Source: Pseudomonadota bacterium
Lineage (GTDB): Bacteria; Pseudomonadota; Alphaproteobacteria; Puniceispirillales; Marisalimonadaceae
DNA: 55,766 nt
Direction: 5' to 3'
Assembly: GCA_027625145.1 (NCBI GenBank)
Contig: JAQBXK010000011.1
Location: 1-55,766 of the forward strand
Shown: positions 34,806-40,021 of the stretch, piece after piece
How positions within the stretch are numbered: position 1 is the stretch's first letter
Layout: each line of letters opens with the position of its first letter
The notes under the pieces: generated by a model
The model's input: only the letters and a program-made list of their open reading frames with translations
Told to the model about the DNA's origin: nothing
Database searches by the model: none
Program-made: the position numbers and the translations under genes

Positions 34806-35555
34806 ATGAAGACAAAAACAGCTTTAATAACTGGTGTTAGTGATGGAATTGGAGCGGCTTTTGCTAGGCTTTTAATTGATAAAGGTTGGTATGTAATAGG
34901 AATAAGTAGAAACAAAGAAAAATTAAATATATTTCAAAAGAAATTAAATACAAAAATAAATATGTTTATAGGTTACCAATGTGACGTTCAAGACCTTGAT
35001 AAATTAAAGTTAATAGCAAAAGAAAATAATTCTCCATCATTATTGTTTTTAAACGCAGGTATTTATAAACCAATTGATTCAAGTAACGAAAATATTGATG
35101 TTTATAGAGAACACTTAAATATTAATTTTCTTGGTGTAATTAATTGTTATGAATCTTTTCTTCCTAAAATGATGTTAAATGGTAATGGAAAAATTTTAAT
35201 TATGTCTAGCATTGCTGGATGGATTGGATTACCAAAATCAGCTGCATATGGGCCTACTAAAGCAGCATTAAGATCCTTTGCGCAATCAATTAGATATGAT
35301 TTATTTTCAAAAGGTATTTCAGTGCAAATTTGTAGTCCTGGCTTCGTTGACACTTCTGCAACATCAATAAATGATTTTTATATGCCAGGTCTTTTGAAAG
35401 TTGATGATGCTGCAAAACTAATTTATAAAAATATGAATAAGAATAAGTTTGAGTTCTCATTTCCTTTTATTTTTTCATCGTTTATGAAAATATTAAGTCT
35501 TTTGCCTGATAAGATATCTTTATTATTAATTAAGAAAATATTACTGAAAAATTAA
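34806..35555 (+). CDS. SDR family oxidoreductase (lipid cluster)
   Basis: A 249-aa short-chain dehydrogenase with GVSDGIGAAFARLL at residues 10-23, LNAGIYKP, the catalytic Ser in IMSSIAGWIGLP, and YGPTKAALRSF. The C-terminal segment (about 215-249, FIFSSFMKILSLLPDK) is hydrophobic, suggesting membrane association. It is followed five bases later by the SnoaL-like gene. SDRs of this type recur beside CFA-synthase-like and DUF1365 genes in alphaproteobacteria, so a role in modified fatty acids or a related stress product is plausible. Confidence 0.87.
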   Translation: MKTKTALITGVSDGIGAAFARLLIDKGWYVIGISRNKEKLNIFQKKLNTKINMFIGYQCDVQDLDKLKLIAKENNSPSLLFLNAGIYKPIDSSNENIDVYREHLNINFLGVINCYESFLPKMMLNGNGKILIMSSIAGWIGLPKSAAYGPTKAALRSFAQSIRYDLFSKGISVQICSPGFVDTSATSINDFYMPGLLKVDDAAKLIYKNMNKNKFEFSFPFIFSSFMKILSLLPDKISLLLIKKILLKN

Positions 35556-35560
35556 ATATT

Positions 35561-35986
35561 ATGAAAAAAAAACCTATTGATAAATATATTGAATTATTTA
35601 GTGATTTAACAATAGATAAAGTAAAAGAATTTGATCATATAGTAGATCTAAATATAGAGTTCACTGATCCTTTTAATGTGGTTAAAGGATTAGATAGCTT
35701 TAAAAATATTTTTAACCACATGTTTAAAAATATTAAAGATCCAAAATTTAAAATTATAGATTACAGTATTGAAAAAAAAAGAACTTTTTTGAAATGGGAA
35801 ATGACTTTTTTTGCATTTAAATCTAAACAGATAATAGTTGGTATAAGTGAGATTAAATGTGGCAAAAATGGAAAAATAATTGCTCATCATGATTATTGGG
35901 ATTCTATGAATGGTATATTTATTAAATTACCTTTTATAGGATTTTTATACAAAACGAGTTTAAGATTATTTTCTTTAAAAAACTAA
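35561..35986 (+). CDS. SnoaL-like/NTF2-fold protein
   Basis: A 141-aa protein that looks like an NTF2/SnoaL fold. An N-terminal helix (YIELFSDLTIDKVKEFDHIV) leads to VEFTDPFNVVKG-type sequence at about 29-41, and a later strand KIIAHHDYWDSM carries His/Asp residues often lining the pocket. Proteins of this fold are commonly found next to the SDR, amine-oxidase-like and DUF1365 genes seen here. It overlaps the convergent CFA-like gene by four bases. Its reaction is unknown. Confidence 0.75.
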   Translation: MKKKPIDKYIELFSDLTIDKVKEFDHIVDLNIEFTDPFNVVKGLDSFKNIFNHMFKNIKDPKFKIIDYSIEKKRTFLKWEMTFFAFKSKQIIVGISEIKCGKNGKIIAHHDYWDSMNGIFIKLPFIGFLYKTSLRLFSLKN

Positions 35987-37155
35987 TCTAAGCTAAGCTT
36001 AATTTGTTTAAGATCTATGTTTTTTGATAAAAACCCTCCTTCACAATATGATAAGTAGTAATTCCATAATAGTTTAAAGTTTTCGTCAAACCCAAGTTTT
36101 TCTATTTTATCCCATTTTTTATTAAATTCTTTATTCCATATGTTTAATGTCTTTGCATAATCTTTAGAAAAGCTGTCTATAGAATTTATTTTTAAAGAAG
36201 TTTTATTAATTAGTTCTTTAAGAATTTTATCAGAAGGTAACATACCTCCTGGAAAAATATATTTTTGAATAAAGTCAGGGTTACTTTTATAAACATCATA
36301 AATTTTATCATCTATTGTAATTAATTGAAGTGAAATGTTTCCATTAGGTTTTAAAATATTTTCAATTTTTTTAAAAAATATATTCCAATACTGCTTTCCA
36401 ACCGCCTCAAACATTTCAATTGATACAATTTTATCAAATTTACCAGTAATATTTCTATAATCACATAATAAAACTTTTACTTTATGAGATAAATTAGCAT
36501 CAAAAATTCTCTTTTTAGAGTATTCATATTGCTCTTTAGATATTGTAACGGCGGTAAGATTACAATCATAATTATTTCCAATAAATTCTGCAAATCCTCC
36601 CCAACCACATCCTATTTCTAATATTTGATCGTCATTTTTAATTGCTGCTAATTCAGCTAATTTCTTATATTTATTATTTTGAGCAGCTTCTAATTTTATA
36701 GATGTGTTGTTAAATATTGCTGATGAATAAGTCATTGTTTTATCTAACCAATATTCATAAAATTTATTCCCTAAATCATAATGAAATGAAATATTTTTTT
36801 TTGCCTGATTTTTTGTATTTTTATTTTTATAATGAAAAAGCTTATGTATAATTTTTTTTAAAATTGAAATATTAAAAGTACTCTCAGCTTGATCATTATT
36901 AAGCGCACAGTAATGAATTAAGTTTGTTAAATTATTAGTTGAAATATCCTTGTTAATATATGATTCAGCAAATGCGACTGAGCCACCTTGAATGATTTCT
37001 TTTGCAGTATTTGGTTTAAGAATTTTTAACATTGCTTTAGGACCAGGATTTTTAGCTTTTATATTCTCAATGTATCCATTAGAAAACTCTATTTGGATTG
37101 AACCATATGAAAATTTTTTAAGGCCCTTTAAAAGTAAAATTTCCCAAAAAGTCAT
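35983..37155 (-). CDS. Cyclopropane-fatty-acyl-phospholipid synthase family methyltransferase
   Basis: A 390-aa SAM-dependent methyltransferase acting on unsaturated acyl chains of phospholipids. The N-terminal lipid-binding domain (about 1-110) precedes FHYDLGNKFYEYWLDKTMTYSSA. The SAM site LEIGCGWGGFAEF lies near residue 185, IVSIEMFEAVGKQYW has the conserved Glu of the bicarbonate/active site, and FIQKYIFPGGMLPS follows. Because it clusters with an amine-oxidase-like protein and DUF1365, it may methylate without forming the ring, as the furan-fatty-acid methyltransferase does. True cyclopropane synthesis remains possible. Confidence 0.9.
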   Translation of the reverse strand: MTFWEILLLKGLKKFSYGSIQIEFSNGYIENIKAKNPGPKAMLKILKPNTAKEIIQGGSVAFAESYINKDISTNNLTNLIHYCALNNDQAESTFNISILKKIIHKLFHYKNKNTKNQAKKNISFHYDLGNKFYEYWLDKTMTYSSAIFNNTSIKLEAAQNNKYKKLAELAAIKNDDQILEIGCGWGGFAEFIGNNYDCNLTAVTISKEQYEYSKKRIFDANLSHKVKVLLCDYRNITGKFDKIVSIEMFEAVGKQYWNIFFKKIENILKPNGNISLQLITIDDKIYDVYKSNPDFIQKYIFPGGMLPSDKILKELINKTSLKINSIDSFSKDYAKTLNIWNKEFNKKWDKIEKLGFDENFKLLWNYYLSYCEGGFLSKNIDLKQIKLSLD

Positions 37156-37192
37156 TGTTTTTCCTTAATTATTAAAAAGTGGATGAAATTCG

Positions 37193-38029
37193 TTATTTTT
37201 TATTTTCTGTTAATTCTTTTGCTATTGAATATTTTACATTTTTACTCTTAGGTATTTTATTGAAAGATACTCTTTTTAACCAAATTTTTAGAGCTTGAAA
37301 ATGTATGTTTATCCATATTTTCCCTGGAAAAAATAAAAAGTTAATTAATCCAATAAAAAAATTATAATTATTAAATTCTATTTCTTCTAATTTCATTGAA
37401 GCTGTAAAGATAATTTCGTTATTTATTTCGTATTTAACAGTAGTTTCTACTTTTTTATTTAGATAAATTGCTTTTAATTCATAACAGCCTTCATCATTAT
37501 AAAATGGTGAGACAAATAGTTTTTTCAATACCTTTTGTGAATTACCTTTTTTATTTACATCTAGTAAAATATAATGATGAATATCTCCAAATGTATTTTT
37601 TACTTCAAATATTGTATGTACTAAATTACTTTTTCCATCATAGCAAAAATAAATTGATAAAGGATTAAATCCAAATCCTAAAACTCTTGGAAAGCACATT
37701 AATTTTATGCTTTGGATACTTGTTGATTGATAAGATTTTTTCTTTATCAAATCAAATATAAAATTTAACAAATCTTTTGGTTTTGAGTTTTTTGTTCTAG
37801 AACCATGATCTGAAGGCATCCATGAAAAAAAATTCAATTTATTTATTGAAAATAAGAAAGGTTTTTCAAGATTCCTTTCTTCAGATATTGATGTTAAATC
37901 TACAATTATAGCGATAATTCTATTTTTAAAATAATGTTCAATTTTCCCATATCTATTATGATAAATTAAGCCTTTTAAAAATTTAAAATATTTTTTTTGA
38001 TATTTCATAATTTTATCATCTGCTATCAA
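37193..38029 (-). CDS. DUF1365 family protein
   Basis: A 278-aa member of DUF1365 (COG3496). The N-terminal GLIYHNRYGKIEHYFKNR matches the family's HxR start. Central CFPRVLGFGFNPLSIYFCYD and FGDIHHYILL are strongly conserved, followed by KLFVSPFYNDEGCYEL. The family is of unknown biochemical role and usually sits next to a COG2907 flavoprotein and a CFA-type methyltransferase. It overlaps the upstream flavoprotein gene by 14 bases, indicating coupled translation. Confidence 0.9.
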   Translation of the reverse strand: MIADDKIMKYQKKYFKFLKGLIYHNRYGKIEHYFKNRIIAIIVDLTSISEERNLEKPFLFSINKLNFFSWMPSDHGSRTKNSKPKDLLNFIFDLIKKKSYQSTSIQSIKLMCFPRVLGFGFNPLSIYFCYDGKSNLVHTIFEVKNTFGDIHHYILLDVNKKGNSQKVLKKLFVSPFYNDEGCYELKAIYLNKKVETTVKYEINNEIIFTASMKLEEIEFNNYNFFIGLINFLFFPGKIWINIHFQALKIWLKRVSFNKIPKSKNVKYSIAKELTENKK

Positions 38030-39293
38030 TCGTTTTCCAAGGAATTTGTATGTTCATTAATTTAGCTATAATGACAGCTGATTTTATACCATCCTCGTGG
38101 AATCCATATCCTGTCCAAGCACCACAAAAATATATGTTATTATTTCCTTGTATCGAAAAAAGATTATTTTGAGCTTCATTAGTTTTATTATTAAAAATAG
38201 GATGCATATAGTTAATCTTTTGATAAATTAGTGATTTTTTTGGATTTTTATATGGATTAAGACTAACAAAAATATCTTTTTTAGTTTTCAATTCTTGTAA
38301 AATATTCATCCAATAAGTCACTGAAGATTTTGTTTTACTATCTTTGTTAGATAAATAATTCCAACTTGACCACACATTCTTATTTAGTGGCATTAATGAG
38401 TTGTCAGAATGTAAAAAAACAATATTATTTTGGTATTGAAATTTGTTTAATAAATCAGAGGTTTCTTTTTCTATATTTTTCAATATTCTTAAAGATTGAT
38501 CGGGGTGAGAAGCCATTACAACTTTATCAAAATTATATATTTTATTTTGTTGATCAGTAATTATAATTTTATTATTCTTACTTATAATTGATTTTATTTT
38601 TATATTTAATAAAAGTTTATTATTTTTTTTAGATTTTAAAAGGTCAACAATCTTATTAACATAAATTATTGATCCATTTTTTACAGTTCTCCATTTTGGT
38701 CTTTTATAGAAATTTAGTAATTGATGATTTTTAAAAAACGTTAAAAGGCTTTTTGCAGGAAAATTTAAAATCTGTTCATCTGGACAAGACCATATTGCAG
38801 AAGACATGGGTATAAGGTGATCGTTTACAAATTCGTCACTGAATTTACATCTAATAATATATTCTTTTAAACTTTCATTACCTGGATTTGAATGAGCATA
38901 TTTATAACCAAATTTAAAAAAAATAAAAATGTCTTTTAAAATCCGATAAAAACTAAGATTAAAATAATTTTTTTTCTGAGCAAACAATCCTTTTAATGAT
39001 CCTGAGTACTCTAACTCTCCATTTCTTGCTGAAACACCAAAAGACATATTAGAACTGACTGTTGGAACTTTGAGCCATTTAAATAAACCAACAAGGTTAG
39101 GATAATTCAATTCATTGAATACAATAAAACCAGTATCAACAGGCACTATTTTTTTATTCACTGAAATATCAATTGTATTTGCGTGACCACCATATCTATT
39201 TTTAGATTCAAATAATGTAATGTCATGTTTTTGGGATAAAAGTAAAGCTGAAGAAAGGCCTGATATTCCAGACCCAATAATTGCAATTTTCAT
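38016..39293 (-). CDS. Amine-oxidase-like FAD protein (COG2907)
   Basis: A 425-aa flavoprotein with IAIIGSGISGLSSALLLSQ at residues 3-21, ESKNRYGGHANTIDI as the second FAD contact and a C-terminal FAD segment NIYFCGAWTGYGFHEDGIKSA. The HANTID and GFHEDG motifs are typical of COG2907 proteins. These act on fatty acids or similar lipids, not amines; the related UfaO is implicated in furan fatty acid synthesis. It leads the minus-strand unit flavoprotein-DUF1365-CFA-like. Confidence 0.9.
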   Translation of the reverse strand: MKIAIIGSGISGLSSALLLSQKHDITLFESKNRYGGHANTIDISVNKKIVPVDTGFIVFNELNYPNLVGLFKWLKVPTVSSNMSFGVSARNGELEYSGSLKGLFAQKKNYFNLSFYRILKDIFIFFKFGYKYAHSNPGNESLKEYIIRCKFSDEFVNDHLIPMSSAIWSCPDEQILNFPAKSLLTFFKNHQLLNFYKRPKWRTVKNGSIIYVNKIVDLLKSKKNNKLLLNIKIKSIISKNNKIIITDQQNKIYNFDKVVMASHPDQSLRILKNIEKETSDLLNKFQYQNNIVFLHSDNSLMPLNKNVWSSWNYLSNKDSKTKSSVTYWMNILQELKTKKDIFVSLNPYKNPKKSLIYQKINYMHPIFNNKTNEAQNNLFSIQGNNNIYFCGAWTGYGFHEDGIKSAVIIAKLMNIQIPWKTIDSR

Positions 39294-39318: not shown

Positions 39319-39495
39319 TTAATTAATTTTTTTTAAACCAGACCTTGGTGTACACATATCAGAAAACATCTGTTTTAACATAGATTCCTTGCAATTTAAA
39401 TATTCAGGCATTTTCATATTTGATTGTTCTCTATATATTGATGCTATAACTGTTATAATTATTAATGATGCTAATATCCACATTGTTTTTGACAT
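39319..39495 (-). CDS. Putative 58-aa exported or membrane-anchored small protein
   Basis: ATG at 39495 to TAA at 39319-39321, too short for many gene callers. The N-terminus MSKTMWILASLIIITVIAS is a signal or membrane segment. The rest is polar, with two Cys (LNCKES and SDMCTP) and a C-terminal LKKIN. Upstream AAGGAAATATT gives a reasonable ribosome-binding site. It is 19 bases after the YcgN-type gene on the same strand and 25 bases before the flavoprotein start, so it may belong to their transcript. No family recognised. Confidence 0.6.
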   Translation of the reverse strand: MSKTMWILASLIIITVIASIYREQSNMKMPEYLNCKESMLKQMFSDMCTPRSGLKKIN

Positions 39496-39514: not shown

Positions 39515-39952
39515 TTACCAATTAAAAATATGATTAGGCAAATGTTTAACTTTAATTTTAGATTCGTTAGTTACTCTATTTTTAACACTATTACCACTTT
39601 TTACAATTTCATCATCGTTGCCAGATATAAGGGGGTGCCAGTTTGGCAATTCCTTCCCTTCATCTAATAGTTTATAAGCACAGGTATCAGGCATCCATTT
39701 TAATTCTTTTAAATTACTTGTTGATAAGATAATGCAATCTGGAACTATTTTTTTCCTATTAATATAATCTTTACATTGTGCTGAAGATTCGCATAATAAT
39801 TTACATGAAACATTAGTGTAAAATATTTCTTTATTGTCATAATCTTCTAGTTTAATTACACAACATTTTCCACATCCATCACATAATGATTCCCATTCAT
39901 CATCATTCATTTCAGTTAATTTTTTAGTTTCCCAAAATTTCTTATTACTCAA
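39515..39952 (-). CDS. UPF0260/YcgN-type cysteine-cluster protein
   Basis: A 145-aa member of the UPF0260 (YcgN/YkgJ-like) family, proposed metal- or Fe-S-binding proteins. Cys24, Cys27, Cys30 and Cys31 occur in SLCDGCGKCCVIKLED. Further Cys at NVSCKLLCESSAQCKDY and MPDTCAYKLL complete the conserved set. WHPLISGNDDEI is a family hallmark. Its exact role is unknown. Confidence 0.9.
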   Translation of the reverse strand: MSNKKFWETKKLTEMNDDEWESLCDGCGKCCVIKLEDYDNKEIFYTNVSCKLLCESSAQCKDYINRKKIVPDCIILSTSNLKELKWMPDTCAYKLLDEGKELPNWHPLISGNDDEIVKSGNSVKNRVTNESKIKVKHLPNHIFNW

Positions 39953-40021
39953 AATAAACCTTTATATTAAATTTATAGCTTCTTTTTTAAATATTTCTTA
40001 TTTATAGATAAAGATATAAAT

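Follow-up and report, generated by a model that had tools for sequence, protein, structure and literature searches.

A ufa gene cassette kept without sigma-E/ChrR control in a marine SAR116 bacterium

The five-gene ufa cassette

We analysed a stretch of 55,766 nucleotides (nt) of contig JAQBXK010000011.1 (GenBank assembly GCA_027625145.1; hereafter the window), which holds a five-gene cassette related to the ufa genes of furan fatty acid synthesis. Furan fatty acids are lipids of the membrane with which singlet oxygen reacts. The host is a marine, proteorhodopsin-bearing alphaproteobacterium with a genome of 2.27 Mb (95.7% complete), in agreement with the light-exposed ocean bacterium proposed by an earlier reading of the sequence (the original prediction). 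It belongs to the order of Candidatus Puniceispirillum marinum (the SAR116 clade) and is placed in another family. The five gene families named in the original prediction indeed sit together at 34806-39293, as confirmed by coordinates and family matches:

34806-35555, plus strand: short-chain dehydrogenase (SDR), ufa-locus partner; Pfam PF00106, E 1.6e-37; beside ufaMOD in named loci as well as in 20/20 relatives of the order
35561-35986, plus strand: SnoaL/NTF2-like protein, ufa-locus partner; Pfam PF12680, E 2.8e-8; place conserved in 20/20 relatives
35983-37155, minus strand: ufaM homolog, predicted S-adenosylmethionine (SAM)-dependent fatty-acyl methyltransferase of the CFA superfamily; PF02353, E 5e-84; in the ufa-linked clade (99/91)
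37193-38029, minus strand: ufaO homolog (DUF1365), predicted O2-dependent furan-forming enzyme; PF07103, E 4.2e-52; invariant residues kept
38016-39293, minus strand: ufaD homolog, COG2907-type flavin adenine dinucleotide (FAD) protein of amine-oxidase fold, predicted fatty-acyl desaturase; Pfam amine oxidase and NAD_binding_8

All five reading frames are open and lie where they had been placed; the SnoaL match is above its family cut-off and the other four genes have strong E-values. For ufaO the ATG at 38008 is probably a better start than 38029. The SDR-SnoaL unit converges on the ufaD-ufaO-ufaM unit and overlaps it by 4 nt at the two stop codons (SnoaL and methyltransferase). The genome holds one DUF1365 gene and one full-length CMAS gene, and all three ufa homologs occur in this one genome, adjacent in the order D-O-M. 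Judged by families and gene order, the five genes are the ufaD-ufaO-ufaM set plus its usual SDR and SnoaL partners, which bears out the predicted resemblance to the RpoE-ChrR-controlled furan locus.

Relatives from the same order were compared at 20 loci, covering four families. The convergent layout is found in 20/20, so the five-gene grouping is not due to chance, and UfaO accompanies UfaM and UfaD throughout. DUF1365 is present in 22/24 high-quality genomes of the order sample, and DUF3833 lies between ufaM and SnoaL in 7/20 relatives. Ratios of the nonsynonymous to synonymous (dN/dS) type in close same-family pairs amount to 0.12-0.14 for UfaD, 0.11-0.19 for UfaM and 0.21-0.28 for UfaO (neighbouring genes are alike); the cassette genes are under purifying selection. 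No relative was found in the viral contigs searched. UfaM reads as two pieces in G004 (L049 7924-9085) and G059 (L065 6004-7319), which may reflect a frameshift, a pseudogene or an assembly error.

For UfaM a careful tree of 68 proteins was made, including cyclopropane synthases of Escherichia coli type and from Alphaproteobacteria. The clade of the window methyltransferase holds 49 further enzymes linked to ufaD/ufaO and three without such linkage, and it is set apart from both types of Cfa (support 99/91). This is the phylogenetic check suggested with the original prediction; a grouping with true cyclopropane synthases is not seen, and on the tree that identity was rejected. Window UfaM shares 36-71% identity with ufa-linked enzymes, as opposed to 31% with E. 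coli Cfa, and it matches the NCBIfam Cfa models far under their cut-offs. With E. coli Cfa it shares the superfamily, the SAM motif, Glu239 and Tyr317, but it has C139->Ser and H266->Gln, a pattern typical of the ufa-linked clade. Because the cyclopropane synthases of cotton, a plant, carry the same two changes (PMC3132707), the active-site residues were dropped as proof of UfaM chemistry. A Halomonas ufaM, consecutive with ufaD and ufaO, yielded 11-methyloctadec-12-enoate when expressed in E. coli (PMC12089945).

The UfaD family profile matches the solved LkcE (1e-62), and window UfaD is 41% identical to the homolog that adjoins sigE-chrR in Azospirillum sp. B510. Window UfaO retains every residue that is invariant across 41 homologs. 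It is confidently modelled as a beta-barrel (predicted local distance difference test score, pLDDT, 86). A sequence search of the PDB found no relative of UfaO; a fold search gave weak matches, with a best Foldseek E of 1.4e-3 and a best VIA-align Z of 7.2, the targets being small barrels of calycin-like type (OlmO/OssO spirocyclases, nitrobindin). Such values are to be expected for a widespread arrangement. No cofactor was deduced.

Characterized systems show the same families in different settings. RPA2571-2570-2569 (ufaD-ufaO-ufaM) of Rhodopseudomonas palustris is necessary and sufficient for furan fatty acid, and its genes are adjacent and in the same order as in the window, as read from the locus-tag numbers (PMC7380195). 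The window differs in that its genome has no sigE-chrR, its unit is led by ycgN and a small open reading frame (ORF), and SDR-SnoaL are convergent. Rhodobacter sphaeroides has UfaD, UfaO and UfaM homologs in the operon RSP1091-1087 beside rpoE-chrR and in ufaM (RSP2144) beside phrA; here, unlike in the window, there is sigma-E control, ufaM lies away from ufaD/ufaO, and three extra genes of the operon are not needed for furan. These furan fatty acid genes are sigma-E targets and are also required for ChrR turnover (PMC6852236). Azospirillum sp. B510 (pAB510d) and Thalassospira lohafexi have the layout of the window exactly, with ufaD-ufaO-ufaM against convergent SnoaL-SDR, but possess a divergent sigE-chrR and DUF3833 behind ufaM, both missing from the window. 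Azospirillum sp. B510 moreover has a sigma-E motif upstream of ufaD, whereas the window has none. An actinobacterial locus with sigK (Tsukamurella) shows FAD protein, DUF1365 and methyltransferase in the order of the window, although actinobacterial D-O-M loci differ by another extracytoplasmic function (ECF) sigma and an anti-sigma. Mycobacterium tuberculosis presumably has a D-O-M locus with sigK too.

Absence of the sigma-E/ChrR switch

As stated by the original prediction, photolyase, ECF sigma and ChrR are all absent from the window. A sigma-70 region 2 search of the genome returned three proteins only (657, 299 and 235 amino acids), read as RpoD, RpoH and FliA; the FliA-like gene is located among flagellar genes. 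No ECF sigma factor was found in the genome at its 95.7% completeness, nor any match to SigE. ChrR was not found genome-wide either, the sole Cupin_7 match being a stand-alone cupin of 181 amino acids beside a tricarboxylate-type transporter, with no sigma neighbour. The proposed lack of the usual regulators thus extends to the whole genome for rpoE and chrR. For photolyase it fails: photolyase genes are present on other contigs (C30 and C14), one of them related to the locus photolyases (40-48% identical), and are therefore unlinked, not lost, while SDR and SnoaL are linked in the window. A photolyase lies directly upstream of ufaD in 7/20 order relatives; in genera g3 and g4 of the window's family it stands between ycgN and ufaD.

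With Azospirillum SigE as query over 61 order genomes, an ECF11 SigE is obtained in three, all from family f4; a fourth match (E 2e-4) is negligible. SigE is followed by a ChrR-like protein in G053 and adjoined by a Cupin_7 match in G027.

The promoter gives a matching picture. A preset sigma-E pattern (TGATC...TAAG) matched almost nothing and was replaced by a motif derived from 48 sigE-ufaD intergenic regions, TGATCC-N16-CGTA, which was searched in the strict form TGATCY-N15-17-CGTA over the 400 base pairs upstream of ufaD. Among named loci (the best 80, a set without R. palustris and R. sphaeroides) the strict motif precedes ufaD in 29/54 with adjacent SigE against 2/26 without. It is found upstream of ufaD in 0/20 SAR116 relatives and on neither strand of the window, and over the host's whole genome its count is at background level (5 matches, the reversed control giving 6). 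Where adjacent sigE is lacking, five named loci (L122, L125, L126, L140, L151) carry the motif upstream of the photolyase preceding ufaD; none of the seven SAR116 locus photolyase genes has it. Among the 20 SAR116 loci the motif precedes an extra SDR heading the SDR-SnoaL operon only in the three SigE-bearing genomes (seen in the sequence of L063 and L065, deduced from position in L056), with spacers that differ between the three, and the other two SAR116 matches fall inside genes. Overall, the host of the window has kept the cassette, and its sigma-E/ChrR control is missing genome-wide together with the promoter motif.

The original prediction had also taken the two convergent units as a reduced version of the locus. 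The convergence is real, but it is no mark of reduction: ufaM and SnoaL are convergent in 12/80 named loci, and Thalassospira, Kordiimonas and Aestuariispira (all among these 12), as well as Azospirillum, have this layout with sigE-chrR. It is the missing regulator, and not the layout, that distinguishes the window.

Nearly the whole SAR116 order has lost the regulator, as have many small alphaproteobacterial genomes. Across 115 genomes sampled evenly from the Alphaproteobacteria, UfaD and SigE (E <=1e-30) tend to occur together: 40 have both, 15 UfaD only, 3 SigE only and 57 neither (Fisher p 6e-15, relatedness and incompleteness ignored). SigE is present in 35/37 UfaD-bearing genomes above 2.3 Mb against 5/18 at or below that size (p 5e-7, ignoring the same two factors), and 13 alphaproteobacterial genomes of 1.2-2.3 Mb have UfaD without a strong SigE match. 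Given this scarcity of SigE among the smaller UfaD-bearing genomes, retention of the pathway with loss of its switch seems to recur in small genomes.

Upstream genes and the transcription unit

Upstream of ufaD the following features are found:

39319-39495, minus strand: conserved small ORF of 58 amino acids with a hydrophobic stretch at the N-terminus (MSKTMWILASLIIITVIASIYREQ...), between ycgN and ufaD; same place in five same-family genomes
39515-39952, minus strand: ycgN cysteine-cluster protein, first gene of the putative ycgN-smORF-ufaD-ufaO-ufaM unit (smORF, the small ORF); NCBIfam NF003501 over cut-off, and gap sizes
39953-40021, minus strand: 69-nt gap separating ycgN from the divergent mnmC, where a promoter for the ufa unit would most likely lie; largest other gap in the unit 37 nt, no sigma-E motif

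The gaps within the minus-strand unit measure 19 nt (ycgN to small ORF), 25 nt (small ORF to ufaD), about 7 nt (ufaD to the probable ufaO start ATG) and 37 nt (ufaO to ufaM). Consensus scans gave promoter-like matches no commoner than in shuffled sequence and found no terminator, so it is the gap sizes that point to co-transcription of ycgN, the small ORF, ufaD, ufaO and ufaM, which we regard as probable. The 58-residue frame is a new small ORF, shared by the window and genus g2; in genera g3 and g4 the corresponding position between ycgN and ufaD is taken by a photolyase.

Function of the cassette and alternative explanations

The explanation that we consider likely is a vertically inherited SAR116 ufa cassette, now detached from the sigma-E/ChrR circuit of the singlet-oxygen response. 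With SAM, UfaM would methylate cis-vaccenoyl chains of phospholipids, UfaD would turn the methylated product into a conjugated diene by desaturation, and UfaO would add O2 and close the methylfuran ring; each step is proven for the R. sphaeroides and R. palustris homologs and would apply here by homology. The SDR and SnoaL would be conserved accessory proteins. Given that ECF sigma, ChrR and a sigma-E promoter are all missing, ufaD-ufaO-ufaM would most likely be transcribed by the housekeeping sigma factor along with ycgN, and the furan lipid would then be present in the membrane at all times as a quencher of singlet oxygen, and not a stress-induced signal. On the simplest account, the pathway may have been retained for the effect of its product on the membrane, the inducible circuit having been dropped in genome reduction. 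Both constitutive expression of the unit and a furan product are predictions from the genes.

Several points weigh against this explanation. Expression and lipid product in this organism are predicted from its genes, and at 95.7% completeness a regulator on a lost contig is possible, though the relatives agree with its absence. The Ser/Gln pattern is also that of plant cyclopropane synthases. UfaO is the most diverged of the enzymes (22-31% identical to named homologs, 26-50% to order relatives), and the likeness to the RSP and RPA enzymes is one of families and gene order, not of direct sequence comparison. A published text that cites the fatty-acid profile of the order member Ca. P. marinum IMCC1322 gives 92% unsaturated, 1.0% polyunsaturated and 0.66% cyclopropane chains, with furan unmentioned there (PMC11813361). 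That profile is tempered by the two cfa-type genes in the genome of this strain. Wild-type R. sphaeroides also contains little furan fatty acid.

If the expression part is wrong, the cassette might be regulated by light or stress through another factor, for instance RpoH, a repressor that acts upstream of ycgN, or a MerR/LitR protein of the kind seen at gammaproteobacterial loci. We hold this to be a minority possibility: MerR genes do stand beside ufa loci in Salinivibrio, on a Klebsiella plasmid and in 3/80 named loci, and RpoH is present in the genome, but no such MerR gene is near any of the 20 SAR116 loci (MerR elsewhere in the genome was not searched) and the ycgN-ufaD interval, with its 19- and 25-nt gaps, leaves no room for a dedicated promoter. 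Slightly less probable still is a non-furan product, namely a methylated alkene, a methyl-diene with conjugated double bonds or, once reduced, a chain with a methyl branch at position 10 or 11, owing to a diverged or inactive UfaO. UfaO evolves fastest (about 0.21-0.28 against 0.11-0.19 for UfaD and UfaM) and is only 22-31% identical to named homologs; furthermore, there are actinobacterial D-O-M loci with a sigK-type regulator, and a crude extract with recombinant M. tuberculosis UfaA1 reportedly yielded 10-methylstearate (PMC5660069). Nonetheless, window UfaO has all residues that are invariant in its 41 homologs, in the 20 order loci it is always found alongside UfaM and UfaD, and it is under purifying selection.

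A cyclopropane synthase, with the flavoprotein and DUF1365 acting on cyclopropane lipids, is very unlikely. The enzyme is a CFA superfamily member with the Ser/Gln residues of plant cyclopropane synthases, plant AT3G23510 resembles both UfaM and UfaD (PMC10940516), and 0.66% cyclopropane chains are listed for IMCC1322 (PMC11813361); these could however be supplied by the second cfa-type gene of that strain, and the 99/91 split from Cfa, the 31% identity and the low NCBIfam scores speak against it. Decaying relics, kept by chance after the regulon was lost, are the least credible: regulator, promoter motif and DUF3833 are gone and UfaM appears split in L049 and L065 (perhaps by assembly error), but DUF1365 persists in 22/24 high-quality order genomes, the window frames are open and the dN/dS-type ratios are well under 1.

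If the ufa cassette is indeed uncoupled from its circuit, a gene annotated as cyclopropane synthase in an abundant marine group is re-labelled, and furan fatty acids are predicted in SAR116 membranes. The loss of the light-stress switch by which most other bacteria control these genes would be a natural experiment on the function of the lipid. Scavenging and signalling roles are entangled in R. sphaeroides; lineages with an intact, selected pathway but without sigma-E and ChrR separate them, and there the lipid must serve something other than that circuit. More tentatively, and with somewhat less than even confidence, we propose that SAR116 and other small-genome marine Alphaproteobacteria make furan fatty acids constitutively, and that protection by chemical means is their primary selectable role, not the signal for ChrR turnover that has been put forward for R. 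sphaeroides. If true, furan lipids would be a general, hitherto unrecorded part of surface-ocean bacterial membranes.

A few observations concern other loci. In IMCC1322 (G030), gene density (2,582 genes over 2,753 kb) suggests that the cfa-annotated SAR116_0580 is probably the ufaM homolog at about 617 kb, an assignment by position and not by a sequence match; SAR116_0655 is the second cfa-type gene of this strain. On the large Klebsiella pneumoniae plasmid p2020S07-151-550k (L074) the ufa locus is complete and includes a MerR regulator; metal-efflux genes and an insertion sequence element adjoin it. Finally, a FufM-like methyltransferase with DUF1295 (26-27/80) and DUF2177 (38/80) are often found beside ufaD-ufaO-ufaM and sigE-chrR (L077-L156), which suggests that DUF1295 and DUF2177 are further genes of furan-lipid metabolism or of the sigma-E regulon.

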